From: Hansfordia pulvinata
Lineage: Eukaryota > Ascomycota > Sordariomycetes > Xylariales
Assembly (NCBI GenBank): GCA_006538405.1
Contig: BJKQ01000005.1
Location: 1,302,001-1,366,000 of the forward strand
DNA: 64,000 bases
Reading direction: 5' to 3'
Part shown: piece by piece, positions 33,954 to 46,140 of the stretch
Position numbering within the stretch: the stretch's first letter is position 1
Layout of the letters: each line of letters opens with the position of its first letter
The notes under the pieces: generated by a model
Database searches by the model: none
Seen by the model: only the letters and a program-made list of their open reading frames with translations
Told to the model about the DNA's origin: nothing
Position numbers and translations under genes: made by a program

Positions 33954-35154
33954 CTACGGCGCGTACCCAATCTCCGACCAGTACTGCCCACCAAGTCCAT
34001 GCTGAAGTCCATGTCCGTGATCATGCTCATGCTCCTCCCCTTCTTCATATCCGCACGCATGCGCCGACCAAGCATCCACGTCAAAAGCGTGAGCTGTCGC
34101 GTGCAGGTGCGCCGGTGTTGACGTGGCGGGCGATTCAGGCTTCATCCTCATCGAGGCCCTCGGACTCGTCCTGCTCGTCGTCCGAAGATCCACCATCTGC
34201 GGTTCGGAAACATGGTTAGTCGACGTCGGGTACTCGGATTGCTGTTGCCACGGTTGACAGTTCATCACGGCGAGGTCGTAGGCGCTCGGCGACAGGAGTC
34301 GCTCGCGCTTCGGCGGGGTGCCAAATGCGCGGGGGTGCGCGGCGGATGTCGGCGGCGCGGGCGGGTCTACGATCAGCACATCGTCGTCGTCGTCGTCGTC
34401 GAGGAGGAAGGTCACGGGGCCCGGTGGCTTCTTCGTCGCGGACGCGGAGGAGCCGGGGGGAGGCGGCGTCGGCGAGGGCGTCGGGGGAAATACGGCGCAG
34501 GCGTACGCGGCGGCAGCGCCGGCGACGCGCGCGTACTCCTCGAACTTGACGGAAACGCCACTCGCGTCTCCCCCCTCGCGCTTCAAGTCGTTGTCATTGA
34601 CGTGGTGCTCGGGCTTCAAGGCGGCGTATGCTTCCTGGCGGCGGTGCCAGTCTTCGAGTTTAACTTCACCTTTGATGGCGAGCGCGGACGGCTCCTCGAG
34701 GTCGCCCAGGTCGGCGGGGGCGTCGCCCGGCTTGGCGCCGACGCGGCGGCGCTTGCGGCTGTTGGCGACGGCGGGGGTGCCCTTGCCCTTGCCTCCGGCG
34801 GTGGTGGTCGAGGCGGAGGAGGCGCCGCCCTCTTTCTTGATGCTGGACATGTTCTTCGCGCTGATGCCGTGGGCCTTGAGCAGGCGCTCGTATCGCTTGG
34901 CGCTGTCGTGGGCGGGCTGGTCAGCACAGGACTTGAGGAGGGGATGGACAGGGTGATGCTTACGCTGCGGCCTTGGTGACGATCTGGCACTCGGCGGCGA
35001 CCTCCTGGAAGTCGACCTGTGTATCGTGAGCTTCGGGTGAGCGGCTTCAGGGGTTTCAAGGGACGGAGCTTACCTTGCCGCCGTTGGAGTGCTTGATGCA
35101 CGAGACCAGGAAGCGGAGCTGGGACTCGGCGTCGAATGCTTGAGCCTTAGGCAT
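33954..35154 (-). CDS. Myb/SANT-like domain protein with His/Glu/Asp-rich C-terminus, one-base frame break
   Basis: Three exons: 35154-35074 (81 nt), 35016-34964 (53 nt) and 34916-33954. Exons 1 and 2 give MPKAQAFDAESQLRFLVSCI, KHSNGGK and VDFQEVAAECQIVTKAAA. Exon 3 continues AHDSAKRYERLLKAHGIS only if one C is added to the CCC at its first bases (34914-34916). This is a three-helix Myb/SANT-like unit of about 65 residues. The rest (healed total about 365 aa) has a basic patch (SRKRRRVGAK), Pro/Ser-rich stretches and a poly-Asp run. The box SAYDLAVMNCQPWQQQ is followed by a final HEHDHGHGLQHG segment. The SAYDL box and the His/acidic tail recur in the gene at 38130-39030, so the two are probably paralogues. 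A DNA-binding regulator is a reasonable inference. Confidence 0.65.
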
Positions 35155-35921
35155 CTTGAATGTTGTTCAATTGAGGAGTGGTGGGAAAAAATAGAGGATG
35201 AAGTGGGAGTTGATGGGGAGATGGCTGAGGCTGAGGGTGTGGACGTTGGAGTGTTCAAGTGTTGGGTGAGTGGGTGGGTGCAAACAGTTGGAACGCGTGG
35301 AAGTGTTGTTTTGGTTCTGCTGGGCGTCCCCTGACTTGGGGCTGTTGCTGGGGACTACTGCTGACTGGACCTCTGGAGGGAGGACGGTATTTTGAATACA
35401 GCACAGGGTTTAGTCCAGAATGTGAGAGGGCAAGCCAGAGGAGATGGACAGGGCTTGCACTGGCTTCTTGACACGAGAATGCCAATTGAGATCTTATGTC
35501 TTCTGCTGCCCAGTGGTGGCCAAGAGCAGGACATCCTGGTGGTCTCTTCTGCCCACACTGGAGGCTTTGGTCGTCTGGCATCTCATGGCTCCAAGGGTGA
35601 GCTGGTGAACTCTACTGCACAGCCAGGGCCCAGGTTCCAATGAGTCTTGCCTCAATGGCAGCATTGTCATTTCGAGCGACACTGCCCACAGCCTGCACAG
35701 TCTGCATCAAAGGAGACATTTCACTTTCATGCAAGGGCAGGCTCAAGTCTTTTGGTCATTGATCAATTCATAGGTCAGGCACGAAGCCTTTGTCCTCTAC
35801 CAAGTCCATCCTTAGGCAAGATCCTCACTGGTTGCCTTGGTCATCTCCATGCTCCGTGTCTTGATCATAATGGAAACGCACTGAAACCCGAAGATTGAGA
35901 CTGTTCCCTTCCGTGGAAGAT
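35155..35921. other. Intergenic between two minus-strand Myb-like genes
   Basis: The leader and promoter of the 34-kb gene, C/T-rich in its sense direction near the start. No gene. Confidence 0.5.
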
Positions 35922-36347
35922 CTAGGCAACGTCGTCGTCGGCCTCCTCCTTCTGAGCCTCTCCATCCTTCTCGGCCTCTCCGTTCTTCTCATCCTCACCA
36001 TCCTTCTCCTCCTTGGCCTTCTTGCCGCGGGGTTTCTTTGAGGTAGGCGAGGCGGCGTCAGCCTCAGGACCGGCAACGCGCTTCTTCGGGGTGGAGCGGG
36101 GGGTTTTCTCGCCGGAAGCCTCATTCTCGAACCACTCGAATTTCTTGCAGAGCGTCCAGAAACGGGTGCGGCAGGACTTGGCATCCTTGTAGTTGTGCTT
36201 GTCGGCCAGCTCGCCAAAGTTGATGGAGGCTCTGGCCGAGGCCGGCAAGTACTTGAGCGCGTCACACAGGAGTTTCATCTCAACGGGGGTGAGGACCTGG
36301 GCGTCCGACTCGGCTCCGCCGGCGTTGGTGTCCTTCTTGGGAGGCAT
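35922..36347 (-). CDS. Short Myb-like domain protein with basic/acidic tail (141 aa)
   Basis: A single-exon frame starting MPPKKDTNAGGAESDAQVLT. Residues about 20-75 read PVEMKLLCDALKYLPASARA, SINFGELADKHNYKDAKSCR and TRFWTLCKKFEWFEN. This is the helix-helix-helix layout of the small fungal Myb-like proteins found further right. The tail alternates Lys-rich (STPKKRVAG, KKPRGKKAKEEK) and Glu/Asp-rich segments and ends EEADDDVA. The tail style matches the common exon at 45778-46140. Probably nuclear; partner and target unknown. The sense strand upstream is pyrimidine-rich. Confidence 0.75.
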   Translation of the reverse strand: MPPKKDTNAGGAESDAQVLTPVEMKLLCDALKYLPASARASINFGELADKHNYKDAKSCRTRFWTLCKKFEWFENEASGEKTPRSTPKKRVAGPEADAASPTSKKPRGKKAKEEKDGEDEKNGEAEKDGEAQKEEADDDVA

Positions 36348-38129
36348 GTTGATCTGTCCAGAGTTAGCAGGAGTCCAGCTCGTGGAAAAGAGCAGCGGGG
36401 AACCGATGCGTGACGGTGACGTGGGATTGGCAGGTCAGGGCACATCAAGCTGGTGAGCACTTACTATTGGATCCCTTGGCAACTGAGTTGGTGTCTCCTT
36501 GGTGAAGCTTGGACGATGTCTGTTGAAGTGGTCAGTCTAATGACAGGAGACGACGGACTGCGATGGCGATGGTGTCGTGGAGTAAGGACGACGCTCACCT
36601 GAATAGACGAGGATGCGCGACGATACCGTGCGTATGTGGCAGAAGCAGGAGACCCTAGTATAATGAGCATTCAGGTAAGTAGGAAGGATAAGGCAATGAG
36701 TTGAGGATGAACCTTCGCTTGGTAGTGTGGGCAGAGAAGGGATTGGTGGCTTGAGAGCTGATGGGTGAAGGGAGGATGTGGCAAGAAAGGGGAGAGACAG
36801 GTGGTAGGTTAAGGCGAGAGGAAGAAAGGTACAGAAGCGCAATGGCGACAGAGGGCAGTGTTGGCACTCGGCTCAACCTCCGCGGGCTCGCCTTCTAGAT
36901 AAAGCCTCTAGCCTGCAAACGCGCAATTTTAGGTGTTAAGGCAGGCAATTTTGTTCGTTTTGTGGGCGACAAAGGCGAGTGTGTGTAGTGAATGGTCTGG
37001 CTTACTGAGTCCGGTGACAATCGAGAGGCCTTGCACGCACCTAGGGCAGTTACGGGGTCGGTCACACGTGTTTGTCTTCTCATCTCGCCATCACCTTAAG
37101 GCCAGCCAGTCTAGCAGCACAACCCAGACAGCTGGGGGGCCATCCTCCAGGCCAGGCAGATGCGAAGAAGGCGTGTGCACCTCCCCTCCGTATGACTATA
37201 TCGATCATCTAATTTAAGGCTGAGGCCGGGTCGACTTTCTCGAGACAAGCATCATTCGTCTGTAGCTGAGAGGCAGCAGGCTATGTCGCCGCGCCACTCT
37301 CGTGAACACGTCCAGCTTTCTCGAGTGGACGTGGGCCCCCTTGAGTGAGGAGCAGTCGAGCTTTTACGTGACCAACCCCTAAGCCTCTGCTATCGGCCAA
37401 GGCTTCATCTTCGCCGAGTTGCAGAGAGATAGAAAAGGGGCACCCTTGATGCGTGCTGTAACCGCGCCATGCAGTACTGCTTCTGGTCATTTCTTCAAGG
37501 CCTTCACGTAATAGAACGACGAAGCCATAATGTCCCAATGGAGGGGCCGCTCATGACACGCGCTCAGGGCCAGGCTTGATCGCAGCGCATGTTCGCGAAC
37601 AGAGGAGCCTGCCTAACAAGAGATCTTACCTCGATTGCACTCAGACAAGCCGCTGGCAAGGTGGGAGCGCGCTTCTATCAGACGATGAGCATTGCGGCTT
37701 CCGCCATGCACATGTTTGGACTTGATGAGCTGAGCCTCGTGTGCCACATACCCATAGAAGTCTGCTTGACAGCAGGATATTGCGAGTCAGGAAGACAGTA
37801 CTTGAGAGAGGCCAGGGGCCACGGCACGTCATGAGCATAGAAGTCCAATTTAGAACTTGACAGTCTATATCATTGCTCAGGAGCTGAGATTCATAGTCCA
37901 AATTGTGCTAGCCAGATCGAAGACCAGTACACTGCGTCAACAGACATTCCCGAAAAGAAACAAAATCAATTCCGACTCCAGGCGCCAGTACTCCAAGCCC
38001 TATCATAATCAGAATACCTCATAAGTCATACCCATGTTCATCTTCTCATCAAGACTCCGCCCAATACCCTTCGTACACGAACAGCGGCAGTTTACACATT
38101 ATTAATGGCGGCGGCGATCTACGCCTGGT
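36348..38129. other. Intergenic, no gene seen
   Basis: The first 500 bases are a C/T-rich leader in the minus sense direction with possible leader introns. The remainder lacks coding character. Confidence 0.45.
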
Positions 38130-39030
38130 CTATGCCACGCAGTCCCAGTCCTCATCCTTGACGTGGTCATGATCGTGCTCGAGGCTGTGGTCATGCTCAA
38201 GGTCGTCGTCATCGTGCTCGATGGAGCGGTTCAGAAAGTTGAACGGCTCTTGATGGGCGTACATGTGCTGCTCACACTGTCCCGCCATCATGTTCTCAAA
38301 AGGAAACATGGTCGGCACGGTAGGGAACTGCATTCCCTGCTGCCAGCACATGGGGTTCTCCTGCGGGAGGGCAGAGGTCATGTGGAGGTCGTAGGCAGAC
38401 GGTGGGGGGTTGTTGAAAAACTCGTTGGTGGGACTAGGGGCTAGAGTAGCCGGGGTGAAAGGGTCCGTCTCACTGGCCGGAGTGAGAAACCGGTATTGGG
38501 ATTGTAGGTTGTGCGGTGTCACCAGCGAGGGTGGCGCGGGTGTAGATCCGGGAGTCATACCCGGCGTCATCCGGGTGTCCAACCCGTAGGGAAGCTCCCG
38601 TTTGACGCCGATGTCTGTGCGACGGCTTCTCTCTTGGCTGCCTGAGCCCGACTTGGAGTTTTGAGAGTCGTCGTCGCCGTCATGAGAGCCTGGGCTGTCA
38701 CCGCGCTCGGACTTGTGGCTGTCTTTTGTAGCTTTCGGATCCTTTTTGGACTTGGTGACGCGGTTTTTAGAGGCCGTTCGATTCCTCTTGGTGGGCTCGC
38801 TCCCGGTGATGGAGCTTTTGAAGCGGGAGTATCTCATGCGGGCGGCGTGTCCATTGGAGATCTCTTGAGCTAGGACAGGGTCTTTGGCGACCAAGTTCCA
38901 GTCAATCTGCGGCTGTCAGTGATGCGGACCACAAGCGGCTCAAGACGAGACTTACATCTCGAAGATTCTTCTGTTTCAGGATGGCGAAGAGAAATCTCGA
39001 CATGACATTGTCGGCAGTGGAGGAAGCCAT
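38130..39030 (-). CDS. Myb-like domain protein with His/Asp-rich C-terminus (283 aa)
   Basis: The gene is read as complement(join(38130..38906, 38956..39030)). A 49-nt intron (GTAAGT...CGCAG) joins MASSTADNVMSRFLFAILKQ, KNLRD to IDWNLVAKDPVLAQEISNGH. The first 60 residues form a Myb/SANT-like unit ending AARMRYSRFKSSI. A basic Ser-rich part (KRNRTASKNRVTKSKKD), Pro/Thr-rich repeats (MTPGMTPGSTPAPP), the box SAYDLHMTSALPQ and CWQQGMQ follow. It ends in a His/Asp/Glu tail (EHDDDDLEHDHSLEHDHDH). The box and tail are shared with the 34-kb gene. The tail could bind metal ions, but that is a guess. The frame is intact. Confidence 0.78.
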
Positions 39031-42439: not shown

Positions 42440-43504
42440 ATGAACAAGAATTGGGGCGACCGCGCAGACAAGGACCTCTTCTTCACCATACTGTCCATCA
42501 AGAACATTGGTGTCATCAGCGGCGCCGAATGGTCGGACATTGGCAACCACATGCGCGCCCTTGGCTACGGCTTCACCAATGAAGGCTGTCGGTAAGCAAG
42601 CCTCGCCTCGCTCGCTCTGCTCTGCCCTCCTGCCTCGCTATCTGTACTGGCCCGGCTACAATCCCGCCCCGGCGTCGGCCTTCGCGTTGCATCCAGGGCG
42701 GCTGATTAGCCAAGCCGGCTCACAACTTGTACCTGGTGGCGCTCGCCCTCGGCTACGGAGCCCGAATCTCGGCGAAGTCGCCCGGGTGCCAGAACCGTGA
42801 CCGCCCATCAGTAGAAGCCCCGTGCCTGTAATCACTCTCCTGTGCTAGATCAACCCGTTGCTCCGTCCGTCCTTGAGGCTCGAAATCTGACTACCGTTAG
42901 TCAACACTTCCAAGGCCTGCGCCGGTCACAGCACAAGGGCGAGCTCAACGGGAACCTGGACGGCCCACCACGTAAAGGGGACCCGACACAAAACCCCATC
43001 ACGCGTCGCCCAGGTCCGGGTCGCGGCAGGCCCAGGAAACACCCCCTGGATGCCGCGGCCGCTGTGGGGCATGAAGATGTCCCCGCCCTCCCGCCAGCGT
43101 CGGCACCGGCGTCGGCATCAGCACCGGCGGTTACCGAAGCAGAGGAGGCCGAGGCGACAGCACTGAACGCGCTCGCAGAGGCAACTCAGCAGCCTTCGGA
43201 CCCTTCTGAGCCGATACTCTCGACGGAAGCGCCGATTGACATTTCCCTCACGGAAGCCCCACCGGATAGCATGACCATGAATCACGGGAACGGCACGTTG
43301 GAAGAGCCCCCGACAAAACGTCAGCGTCTTGAGGAGCTGGAGCCTCCACCCCCTTCAGACGATGAGGCCTTGTTGGCGTTGGCGGCGGAGGGCCTTACCG
43401 GCCCTGGCGACGATTATGACCCCCCAGAGTGAGCAAAGTCTTCATGAATACAATGCGTCGGTGACGGGGGCTGACCTGTGTACAGATATTACGACGAGGC
43501 ATAG
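42440..43504 (+). CDS. Myb-like domain plus AT-hook protein (232 aa, three exons)
   Basis: The gene is read as join(42440..42591, 42901..43428, 43486..43504). Exon 1 encodes one Myb-like unit (MNKNWGDRADKDLFFTILSI, EWSDIGNHMRALGYGFTNEG) and ends in phase 2 inside an arginine codon. Exon 2 begins QHFQGLRRSQHKGELNG, so the joined motif is CR-QHFQGLRR, the usual third helix of this family. An AT-hook (GPGRGRPRKHP) follows near residue 90, then an Ala/Pro/Glu-rich region and KRQRLEELE. The 57-nt last intron (GTGAGC...TACAG) adds YYDEA; without it the frame would stop three codons earlier in the sequence at 43432. Intron 1 is unusually long (309 nt). Nuclear DNA binding is well supported; the target is unknown. 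It has the same domain as the array that follows. Confidence 0.8.
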
Positions 43505-44091
43505 CAACGTTCGAACTACAGAAGGCATACGACTACCAGCAGACTCTTGATAGGTCTACTCATCACGTGTGCACAGGGGTGTATCAAAGCATCATAGCTC
43601 ACATGCCGACAATCAAGAGAAGCAATGGATGGACAAGATGCGATGATGACACCTAATGATTGACATTGTACATATCTGTGTAATTAGCCGATTTTTTCAG
43701 TCTAGAGTTTAGGACAAGGAGACGAAATCACCAAATGAACGATACTACAGCAAGTCACTCCCGTTCTGGCCAGCGATAAGGGTGATCGTATTGCGAGTGG
43801 TTGGCATTGAATGGGCCGTGTGTCCATTGTGCTGCCCACAACCTTGGTGACTGCCTCGCCAGTCACCCAGCAACAAGACAGCTCTGCCCGACCACACAAC
43901 CCGCCAGAGTCGTTGTTGAGGCATCCATCTTACCAGGACTATTCCTAAAATCCACACGATCATCCCGATAAATGTTTCGATCCCAGCACCAACCACCCTT
44001 GACCCCAAACCCGATCGTACACCTGCCGTTACCTCTGCGCTGCAACACAGCATCACCCACCAAACAACCCAACCAGGACAACAACATCAAA
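43505..44091. other. Intergenic, leader of the first-exon array
   Basis: The 3' flank of the AT-hook gene. A C/A-rich leader (about 43960-44091) then leads to the first array exon. Confidence 0.5.
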
Positions 44092-44252
44092 ATGGTTAAA
44101 GGCAAGGGAATCTCTTGGGATGCCGCAGCGGACCAGGCTCTGCTGATCTCGATCCTCCCGCTGATCGGCACGATTTCCACGGACAAACAAGAAGCCATCA
44201 TCACGAACATGAAAGGTCACGGCTACGATACGGCCACTTGGGAGGGGATTCG
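44092..44252 (+). CDS. Array first exon 1: Myb-like domain with own ATG and phase-2 donor
   Basis: An ATG in AAAATGG context opens MVKGKGISWDAAADQALLIS and continues ILPLIGTISTDKQEAIITNM, KGHGYDTATWEGI. The exon ends CG|GTAAGT, phase 2 in an arginine codon (161 nt). No following sequence before the next ATG encodes the expected QHLQ helix; nearby AG sites (44306, 44312) lead to non-homologous readings. Joined to the acceptor at 45778, it would give GIR-QHLQKLKKKEG and a 136-residue protein. It may otherwise be a truncated duplicate. Confidence 0.65.
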
Positions 44253-44587
44253 GTAAGTCGATGACACTGTGTTCGCCGTGTTTTGGCGTGTCCTGTACCT
44301 GTAGCTGCAGCGACAAGGTCGCGTCAAATGTCCAGTGGCATTGGTCTGCCTGGCTGCCTTTGGTAGCCAGTTGCAACTCAGTTGCTGTCTTTCAACTCAC
44401 CTCGCCTTGAGTCGCCCCGAGCACATCCAATTCTTCTGGTTTGCTCACTCGCTGCATTCTACTGCCTCTCTCTACACTCATCCCAGTCAAACCTTTCATC
44501 GTTTTCGATACCTGCATCATCATTGCAAGCTCATTGCACCAACTCTCTATCCTGATCTTTTCGACTTCATCCCCTCTATCAGCTACG

Positions 44588-44745
44588 ATGTCTAAGTCCG
44601 CTGGGAAGTGGGATGGCGAGACGGGCATGGCCCTCTTCCAGACGATCTACCTCGTCACCAACCCCCAAGTCACTCCCGAGCAGCAGAACCAAATTGTGGA
44701 CGCTCTGAAAACCCAAGGTCACGATGTCACCTGGAACGCCATCAG
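44588..44745 (+). CDS. Array first exon 2: Myb-like domain with own ATG and phase-2 donor
   Basis: The ATG at 44588 opens MSKSAGKWDGETGMALFQTI and continues YLVTNPQVTPEQQNQIVDAL, KTQGHDVTWNAI. It ends AG|GTAGGC in phase 2 (158 nt), again within an arginine codon. A C/T-rich leader of over 200 nt precedes it. It is not in frame with array exon 1 if spliced from it, so it is not simply a second exon. Joined to 45778 it would read AIR-QHLQKLK, a 135-residue protein. Confidence 0.65.
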
Positions 44746-45050
44746 GTAGGCTTGACAGTGTAGCCCCGACCCTTTCGTGTCCCTTTCCTTCACTTGCAGA
44801 ACATGTTGCACCGCACATTTCTCTGCCTATCCCACTCCTACCACGCTTTAACCATTTCTTGCCATCTGCAAATTTGTCCCTACAACTCTTCCTCATTCAT
44901 ACTCCTTCTCAACTCTTTATACATCTGCCACCGCATCTTCAAGAACCTACATCTCTTCAGTCTCAATCTTGTCCCCAATTGCCTCTTCTTATTACATAGT
45001 CCGGTCGCACTCTTTAACGTTGCCGTTCAACATCTCGGCTCGGAGCAAAC

Positions 45051-45208
45051 ATGGCTGGCCAGCGCAAGCTCACCAACTGGAACGCTGAAGTCCACGAGGA
45101 CATTCTCCTTGCCGTGATCAAGCACGCCAAGTTGACTGCTGCCATGTGGGAGCCCATCATGAATGAGCTCCATGGCAAGGGCCATGAGTTTACGCGTGGC
45201 GGACTAGA
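45051..45208 (+). CDS. Array first exon 3: Myb-like domain with own ATG and phase-2 donor
   Basis: The ATG at 45051 (AAACATGG) opens MAGQRKLTNWNAEVHEDILL and continues AVIKHAKLTAAMWEPIMNEL, HGKGHEFTRGGL. It ends GA|GTAAAC in phase 2 (158 nt, the same length as array exon 2). The next in-frame codon would be a stop, so without splicing the product is only 53 residues. Joined to 45778 it gives GLE-QHLQKLK, a 135-residue protein; the usual arginine would be glutamate here. Confidence 0.62.
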
Positions 45209-45495
45209 GTAAACCCCCCTCTGATATTTTCGTCTCTGTCCCTTTTCTCTGATTCACCTCCATCTCATCCCGCGCCGGGCCTTGCAATGCCAGGCACCCA
45301 ACTCTCTGATCCGTTTGCCTGCCCACCACTTAGCCTTAATCTTCTCCCACTTCTCACCTTTCTTCTTTCTATCTTCTTCCTTCACCACGCTGCCCATCCC
45401 ACCCAAGGCTCCTCATCTTACTTGATCGACCTACACCACTTGCCCACCTTCCAACATCACTCACCCACATCATTCCACCTCATCAAACAATTACG

Positions 45496-46140
45496 ATGGC
45501 TCCCAAGACTGCCTGGAACGACACCACCCGCTCAGACCTTCTGCGACTGATCGTAGAGGTGGCTGCTATTACCTCGGACCAGTGGAAGCTAGTCGACACT
45601 GCCTTGCAGGCCCGAGACTACGGCTACAACGCCAACGCTGCCCAGTACCGCTCCCTCATCTCCCTCTCCCTCTGTCTTCATCTCCTTCTCCCTCCTCAGT
45701 TTCTGCCTGCATTCTCATTGTCTTTTCTCCTGATGACCAAAGTCGTGCACATGCTAATCACCCCGCCCGCATCGCAGACAGCACCTCCAGAAGCTGAAGA
45801 AGAAGGAGGGCTCCGCCGCCCCATCGACCCCCAGCACCAGCGCTCCTGGCACCCCTGGTACCAAGAAGAGCGGCGGAAAGTCCACCGGCAAAGGCTCCAA
45901 GGCCAAGCGCGCTCTCGAGGACAACGAGGAAGACGACCCTGACACCCCGTCCAATAAGCCGAAGGTCAAGTAAGCAAAGCCCATGATCCCTTCCCCCCCT
46001 CTCTCTCGCCCACCGGGGCCACCCGTCCTTAGCCAAAGGGGACGAAATTACACGCATAGCTTACTGACGACGAATCGCATAGGTCGGAGGATGGTGCGAA
46101 GCCCACCACCGACGAGAAGCTTGACGAGGGCGAGGCCTGA
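45496..46140 (+). CDS. Array first exon 4 with common tail: Myb-like domain protein (132 aa)
   Basis: The gene is read as join(45496..45644, 45778..45969, 46083..46140). Exon 1 encodes MAPKTAWNDTTRSDLLRLIV, EVAAITSDQWKLVDTALQAR and DYGYNANAA and ends CA| in phase 2 (donor GTACCG, weak). Exon 2 starts ACAGCACCTC and gives QHLQKLKKKEGSAAPSTPST, then a Lys-rich part (KKSGGKSTGKGSKAKRALED), an acidic run (NEEDDPDTP) and NKPKVK. Exon 3 (acceptor GCATAG) ends SEDGAKPTTDEKLDEGEA. The domain matches array exons 1-3 in layout: W near residue 7, LL, a second W near 30, GY near 43, then the QHLQ helix. The tail is highly charged, like the 35.9-kb gene. Likely a small nuclear DNA-binding protein. Confidence 0.78.
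45645..45777 (+). other. Intron with the acceptor proposed to be shared by four first exons
   Basis: The 133-nt intron of the last array gene, with a branch-like GCTAATC about 24 nt before the acceptor ATCGCAG (45771-45777). All four upstream first exons end in phase 2, which fits this acceptor. Confidence 0.6.

Follow-up and report, generated by a model that had tools for sequence, protein, structure and literature searches.

The window, a stretch of 64,000 nucleotides on contig C5 of the 46.8-Mb assembly of Hansfordia pulvinata, carries on its plus strand four tandem exons that all begin with an ATG and end at a GT in phase 2, together with a constant part of two exons and, outside this array, a cousin that we call the AT-hook gene, after the name used in the initial annotation. 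The four exons lie exactly where that annotation had placed them, and the features are as follows.

44092..44252, plus strand: variable first exon e1 (ATG ... WEGI-R), phase-2 donor GTAAGT at 44253
44588..44745, plus strand: variable first exon e2 (ATG ... TWNAI-R), phase-2 donor GTAGGC at 44746
45051..45208, plus strand: variable first exon e3 (ATG ... RGGL-E), phase-2 donor GTAAAC at 45209
45496..45644, plus strand: variable first exon e4 (ATG ... NANAA-Q), phase-2 donor GTACCG at 45645
45778..45969, plus strand: constant exon (QHLQKLKKKEG, then a Ser/Thr/Pro/Lys-rich tail), acceptor CAG
46083..46140, plus strand: last constant exon, acidic C-terminus, TGA at 46138-46140
42440..42591, plus strand: first exon of the AT-hook gene, with the same phase-2 junction
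42901..43432, plus strand: second exon of the AT-hook gene (QHFQGL ... GRGRPRK ... stop)

The lengths of e1-e4 all equal 2 modulo 3, with the GT directly after each, and the single constant acceptor at 45778 is compatible with the phase-2 donors of all four. Joining e1, e2, e3 or e4 to 45778 and then to the last exon gives open proteins of 136, 135, 135 and 132 residues, respectively, and the four in-frame junctions proposed earlier (R-, R-, E- and Q-QHLQKLKKKEG) are all exact. The constant exon comprises 64 codons and is in phase 2 at both ends; it is followed by an intron (45970-46082) with the donor GTAAGC at 45970 and a TAG acceptor ending at 46082. Skipping of 45778-45969 would preserve the frame and would place any variable exon directly on the acidic last exon, with helix 3 incomplete. 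The ATG of e3 is preceded by an in-frame stop at 45015-45017. The leaders of all four units had been described as C/T-rich, which is true of e2, e3 and e4 (C/T fractions of 0.68, 0.65 and 0.66 over the 100 nt before the ATG; 95th percentile of the window, 0.63), but not of e1 (0.55); as a hint of separate promoters, the leaders of e2, e3 and e4 are only suggestive.

The junction type is also that of the AT-hook gene, as had been claimed (exon 42440-42591, acceptor 42901, R-QHFQGL). Its first exon is 20-34% identical to e1-e4, and no Pfam model matched its protein.

When left unspliced, e1, e2 and e3 run into a stop (TAA, TAG and TAA) one codon past the donor, since GTAA or GTAG in phase 2 reads as a stop, and the frame of e4 remains open beyond its donor. 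These stops fit an account in which each of e1-e3 is a short gene in its own right, or an upstream open reading frame of one long messenger, and splicing to the tail is confined to e4, which its position as the variable exon nearest to 45778 (133 nt) would likewise favour. The products of e1-e3 would then be peptides of 53-54 residues with helices 1 and 2 only, perhaps partner-binding or dominant-negative microproteins; however, they would be without most of helix 3, and in each unit a GT stands at the intron position of the family. We regard this account as unlikely, and the gene models of relatives, described below, bear on it as well.

Coding signal and acceptor choice

Using a codon model trained on the 7046 codons of the window's long open reading frames, we obtained mean codon log-scores of 0.217, 0.273, 0.258 and 0.238 for e1-e4, which exceed those of 801 out of 801 nearby stop-free plus-strand placements of 150 nt; these placements overlap, and the comparison is a ranking that carries no P value. 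In all four exons, both remaining frames scored negative. The count of open reading frames that start with ATG and span at least 50 amino acids is unremarkable (8, versus a mean of 5.0 and a maximum of 11 in 1000 simulations). Chance open reading frames are ruled out by the codon score for e1-e4 and additionally by homology for e2-e4, and no match to Rfam was obtained at the gathering threshold. Between the units there is no notable DNA similarity, the best blastn match among those listed being a 12-base inverted one (E 0.027), and amino-acid identity among e1-e4 is 15-33%, from which we conclude that the units are old. Recent duplicates are ruled out, as the units lack DNA similarity among the matches listed. 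The same strong divergence, together with the absence of a QHLQ-like second exon near e1-e3, would suit partial tandem duplicates that are decaying and whose second exons have been lost, which had been offered as the more sober alternative; yet the frames of e1-e3 are open, and their codon use is coding-like.

From the e1 donor to position 45800 there are 62 AGs, which we surveyed with a helix-3 pattern and a branch-site test of our own definition, judging sites by the usual branch-site and donor consensus sequences. Only 45778 fits the helix-3 pattern in phase 2, for all four units, and it is preceded at 21 nt by a branch-site-like CTAAT; the earlier statement that e4 alone is followed by a QHLQ exon is thus borne out, with one compatible AG in 62. 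Could each unit nevertheless have a second exon of its own, with an unusual acceptor and no QHLQ-like motif, that such tests miss? For e3, two CAG or TAG acceptors with a branch-site match lead to 5 and 72 residues, and the latter, a TAG with a branch-site-like CTGAT that opens an exon from 45334, yields 72 open residues in C/T-rich sequence. Against this stand e1 and e2, within 150 nt of which no acceptor of the CAG or TAG type has a branch-site match, the lack of any other AG among the 62 that fits helix 3 by our patterns, and the models of 18 relatives, none of which by eye shows a conserved exon of this kind; separate second exons are, in our judgement, quite improbable.

The acceptor survey also bears on whether e1, e2, e3, e4 and the tail follow one another in one messenger that encodes a multi-domain protein. 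No AG in this window joins the e2 donor to e3 in frame, and e1-e2 and e3-e4 can be joined only through GAG or AAG sites that have no branch-site match; acceptors before e2-, e3- or e4-type units are used in gene models of relatives. A tandem-repeat Myb protein with fused repeats was rejected for e2-e3 from the phase-2 donor of e2.

By eye, the donor of e1 (GTAAGT) is the best of the four and that of e4 (GTACCG) the poorest, and the donors of e2, e3 and e4 are imperfect against the usual consensus. A good e1 donor and a poor e4 donor would, we infer, aid distal donors in competition. The introns needed to reach 45778 measure 133 nt for e4, 569 nt for e3, 1032 nt for e2 and 1525 nt for e1. The last three are long for fungi of this kind; introns in Verticillium dahliae average 100 bp, according to one report (PMC5294800). 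One would expect the near donor to be used with a near acceptor, which counts against the distal joins. Among splicing events in Sclerotinia, intron retention was the commonest (39.8%) and alternative first exons made up 1.1%, as given in a second report (PMC7749757).

Predicted fold and the part proposed to be exchanged

In the AlphaFold2 model of P0011, a relative from Xylaria flabelliformis, helix 3 spans residues 49-70 and the exon junction (residue 53) falls inside it, and in the predicted structure of the Verticillium protein P0013, a full helix 3 is present in unit 4, each of units 1-3 showing two helices with a short stub. The variable exons are thereby predicted to encode helices 1 and 2 with the first turn of helix 3, the greater part of which would come from the constant exon. 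The swap of DNA-binding domains envisaged in the initial annotation would concern this scaffold and not a whole domain, the AlphaFold2 junction being within helix 3.

The description of the domain as Myb-like draws on modest and unspecific matches among the fold chains listed and on Pfam, where Myb scores were below threshold or no Myb model was listed. The best were 15.3 bits for e2+tail (cut-off 24.4) and 11.5 bits for e4+tail (cut-off 27), e1+tail, e3+tail and the AT-hook protein drew no Myb model, and P0007 alone among nine relatives had one (17.2 bits, cut-off 27). Membership of Myb_DNA-bind_8, Myb_DNA-bind_4 and Myb_DNA-binding was rejected, all scores being below the respective cut-offs. 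A profile of the array family found no domain match in the Myb_DNA-bind_8 protein encoded at 35154 (probability 9.8%).

Gene models of relatives and age of the units

We retrieved 18 related proteins from the protein collection (16 Xylaria, one Nemania and one Verticillium) and placed them on the window with tblastn and visual inspection; all of them are gene models. At E<=0.001 the first search kept 6 of its 27 candidates, and at E<=10 the second kept 16 of 27, four being shared; a search with joined e1+e2+e3 gave 0 of 24 candidates at E<=1. The models fall into five conflicting architectures, a disagreement among annotators for which a layout of alternative first exons may account.

e4-tail, 8 of 18: P0001-P0004, P0006, P0014-P0016
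e3-tail without e4, 2 of 18: P0011 (Xylaria flabelliformis) and P0018 (Nemania sp. FL0916)
e3-e4-tail, 3 of 18: P0005, P0007, P0008
e2-e3 without tail, ending at the stop at the e3 donor (SALK*), 4 of 18: P0009, P0010, P0012, P0017 (all Xylaria)
four units and tail, 1 of 18: P0013 (Verticillium albo-atrum)

No model joins e1 or e2 directly to the tail (0 of 18). P0011 and P0018 both map to e3 and then the tail in local searches, and P0018 matches the locus at E<=10 in exactly two stretches, 45063-45206 and 45776-45940, with e4 omitted. P0011 and the e3-e4-tail model P0008 are 88% identical in their tails and 87% in their e3 parts, so that both kinds of model very likely use one and the same tail. 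A QHLQ or QHIA motif occurs once per protein in all 14 tail-bearing relatives, and e3 ends at SAL plus one codon in all ten that bear it. In P0005, the first 52 residues align to e3 without gaps at 44% identity, start Met and last residue coincide, and the e4 part has lost its start. Four Xylaria models match e2 by tblastn.

For e1-e3 as short genes, these models count in both directions. The four annotated as e2-e3 end at SALK*, as that account would have it, but six of the ten e3-bearing models (P0005, P0007, P0008, P0011, P0013, P0018) continue past e3 with junction residues that, by eye from the proteins, fit a phase-2 donor, and in two models e3 is joined to the tail. A single multi-domain messenger likewise finds its support here, in the four units and tail of P0013, in the e3-e4-tail models and in the e2-e3 models. 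The linkers in the relatives, however, are by eye mostly unlike between genera and resemble translated leaders, and the units keep their own Met (P0005 e4 excepted); combined with the joins that the acceptor survey disfavours, this leaves a multi-domain protein extremely unlikely. As a side observation, the public models of the locus (P0005, P0007-P0010, P0012, P0013, P0017) are probably often wrong, and in most of these eight, leaders upstream of an internal Met are read as linkers. P0006 (e4-tail) and P0012 (e2-e3), both from X. scruposa, lie on contigs of 277,096 bases, probably one and the same contig.

A tree of 32 units over 53 columns, whose inner forks are weak and from which the e4 part of P0005 was excluded, places all e3 units on one side of a branch (11 rows, this fungus and ten relatives; support 96/76; this fungus, Xylaria, Verticillium and Nemania) and all e4 units on one side of another (12 rows, this fungus and 11 relatives; support 97/81; this fungus, Xylaria and Verticillium). 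Since both clades span genera, e3 and e4 very likely arose before these lineages parted, as far as sequence comparison can tell. In comparisons that involve this fungus or Verticillium, e3 and e4 orthologues are 37-53% identical, versus 21-35% for e3 against e4 within a locus. This conservation speaks against partial tandem duplicates in decay: e3 and e4 are retained in Xylaria and Verticillium, e3 also in Nemania and with start and end in all three, and e2 is kept in Xylaria. Decay therefore appears very improbable for the array, at least as regards e3 and e4, and e1 alone could still be a relic.

The evidence is more graded for e2 and e1. In the tree, e2 joins the two leading units from Verticillium, and e1 clusters with no other unit. 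Three Xylaria have an e2 unit that is 33-37% identical to e2 here, the second unit of Verticillium is 29% identical to it, and e2 identity between genera (20-37%) is not above the level between different units; against shuffled sequences, the closest counterpart of e2 among those tested was the Xylaria e2 (z of 11.1), followed by the Verticillium e3 (7.5) and the second Verticillium unit (6.6). No clear orthologue of e1 was found among the relatives: it is 14% identical to the first Verticillium unit, and nearest to the e2 of its own locus (33%) and to the AT-hook exon (34%). The two leading units of P0013 had no match in the window at E<=0.01; searched alone, the second found e2 best (E 0.003) and then e1 (0.015), and the first found e2 at E 0.13. 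Each of the two leading units, which occupy residues 1-105 of P0013, has the other as its nearest match (35% identity), and by their sequences they may represent a lineage duplication separate from e1 and e2 of this locus. Overall, we are highly confident that e3 and e4 belong to an old array of coding first exons that has been conserved and has a single tail, confident to a good degree that e2 does so too, and inclined, with some reserve, to include e1.

A proposed choice among first exons

Among the readings tested, alternative first exons are favoured as the best. The locus would comprise four alternative coding first exons and a common 3' part, and each variable exon would start its own transcript at its own putative promoter. 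The exon chosen would encode helices 1 and 2 of a predicted small Myb/homeodomain-like domain, along with the first turn of helix 3; the phase-2 donor of that exon would be spliced to the single acceptor at 45778, and the constant exon would finish helix 3 and contribute the basic/acidic tail. Up to four proteins could result, in which the scaffold and the junction residue (R, R, E or Q) vary and helix 3 and the tail are otherwise alike. With its 133-nt intron, e4-tail is likely the default product; e3-tail draws support from the gene models of two relatives, P0011 and P0018, and for e2-tail and e1-tail we infer the joins from coding potential, from phase and from the lack of any other acceptor that could serve. 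We assign the full mechanism a probability of roughly 0.6, and no higher because of the long introns, the rarity of alternative first exons, the expected pairing of the near acceptor, the lack of e1-tail and e2-tail models, the four models that end at the e3 stop and the conflict among models in general. The original proposal, that the fungus may make four DNA-binding proteins by exon choice, is partly supported: alternative first exons are the best of the readings tested and gain from the e3-tail models, but four working isoforms are putative, the e1-tail and e2-tail joins occur in none of the 18 models and e1 is without a clear orthologue.

Several animal loci are organised in a comparable manner. 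UGT1A has a tandem row of variable first exons, with a promoter for each, that are joined to constant 3' exons. Like UGT1A and the vertebrate clustered protocadherins, the array has tandem, diverged coding first exons with their own start codons, one downstream part and an in-frame junction of the same phase; unlike them, it is fungal, holds only four units in 2 kb and has putative transcripts, and its variable part is a fraction of a small DNA-binding-like domain, cut within helix 3. Tandem 5' exons placed before a constant part also serve isoform choice in vertebrate protocadherins and in the sDscams of chelicerates, whose cap-proximal and also downstream cassettes are joined to the constant exon, as described in one report (PMC4835542). 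The likeness to sDscam lies in alternative promoters and in a variable 5' cassette that is spliced to a constant exon, with a precedent for picking one of several donors, whereas its cassettes generally consist of 2 or 4 exons coding for Ig domains and its products are cell-adhesion molecules. The likeness to protocadherins, UGT1A and sDscam is one of organisation and does not imply common descent.

We found no description of a fungal array of this kind in the open-access literature, judged mostly by titles. By a small measure, we lean towards seeing the locus as a fungal counterpart of the protocadherin type, kept since before the split of Verticillium and Xylaria, in which alternative promoters would set one of up to four helix 1-2 modules on a shared helix 3 and tail. 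If alternative first exons are indeed used, one compact locus would yield a small set of DNA-binding proteins in which the DNA-facing helix is mostly common and the scaffold and one junction residue differ. Should transcripts confirm this, the locus would offer a 2-kb model for choosing among several donors before one acceptor, and an exon boundary through helix 3 would let scaffold and DNA-facing helix evolve apart.

The tail exon had no second copy in the genome, in searches that included the e4+tail protein and a QHLQKLK pattern, and no further copies or arrays were seen among the best-scoring candidates obtained with e4+tail, e1+e2+e3, QHLQKLK, the AT-hook protein and P0018. A second DNA match to QHLQKLK, on contig C6, lies in a different gene, whose product looks by eye like a coiled coil followed by WD40-like repeats.

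Inside this window, small Myb-like genes form a nest about 12 kb across, at about 34000-39030 on the minus strand and then, with the AT-hook gene and the array, at 42440-46140 on the plus strand. The minus-strand members are as follows.

35154, minus strand: Myb-like gene, PF22980 (Myb_DNA-bind_8), 86.9 bits
36347, minus strand: Myb-like gene, weak, 14.7 bits (cut-off 27)
39030, minus strand: Myb-like gene, 42.8 bits

Genome-wide, PF22980 was found at no fewer than three loci, at least two of them in this nest and the third (contig C9) below the cut-off. The gene at 35154 resembles the array in its N-terminal Myb-like domain and in a phase-2 intron that lies, by eye, at the start of helix 3 (its second intron, about 34900-34963, GTAAGC, 61 nt), and differs in that the array units either fall short of the Pfam cut-off or have no listed match. 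A phase-2 intron at the start of helix 3 may be ancestral to the wider family. The gene at 39030 has a phase-0 intron, situated elsewhere in the gene.
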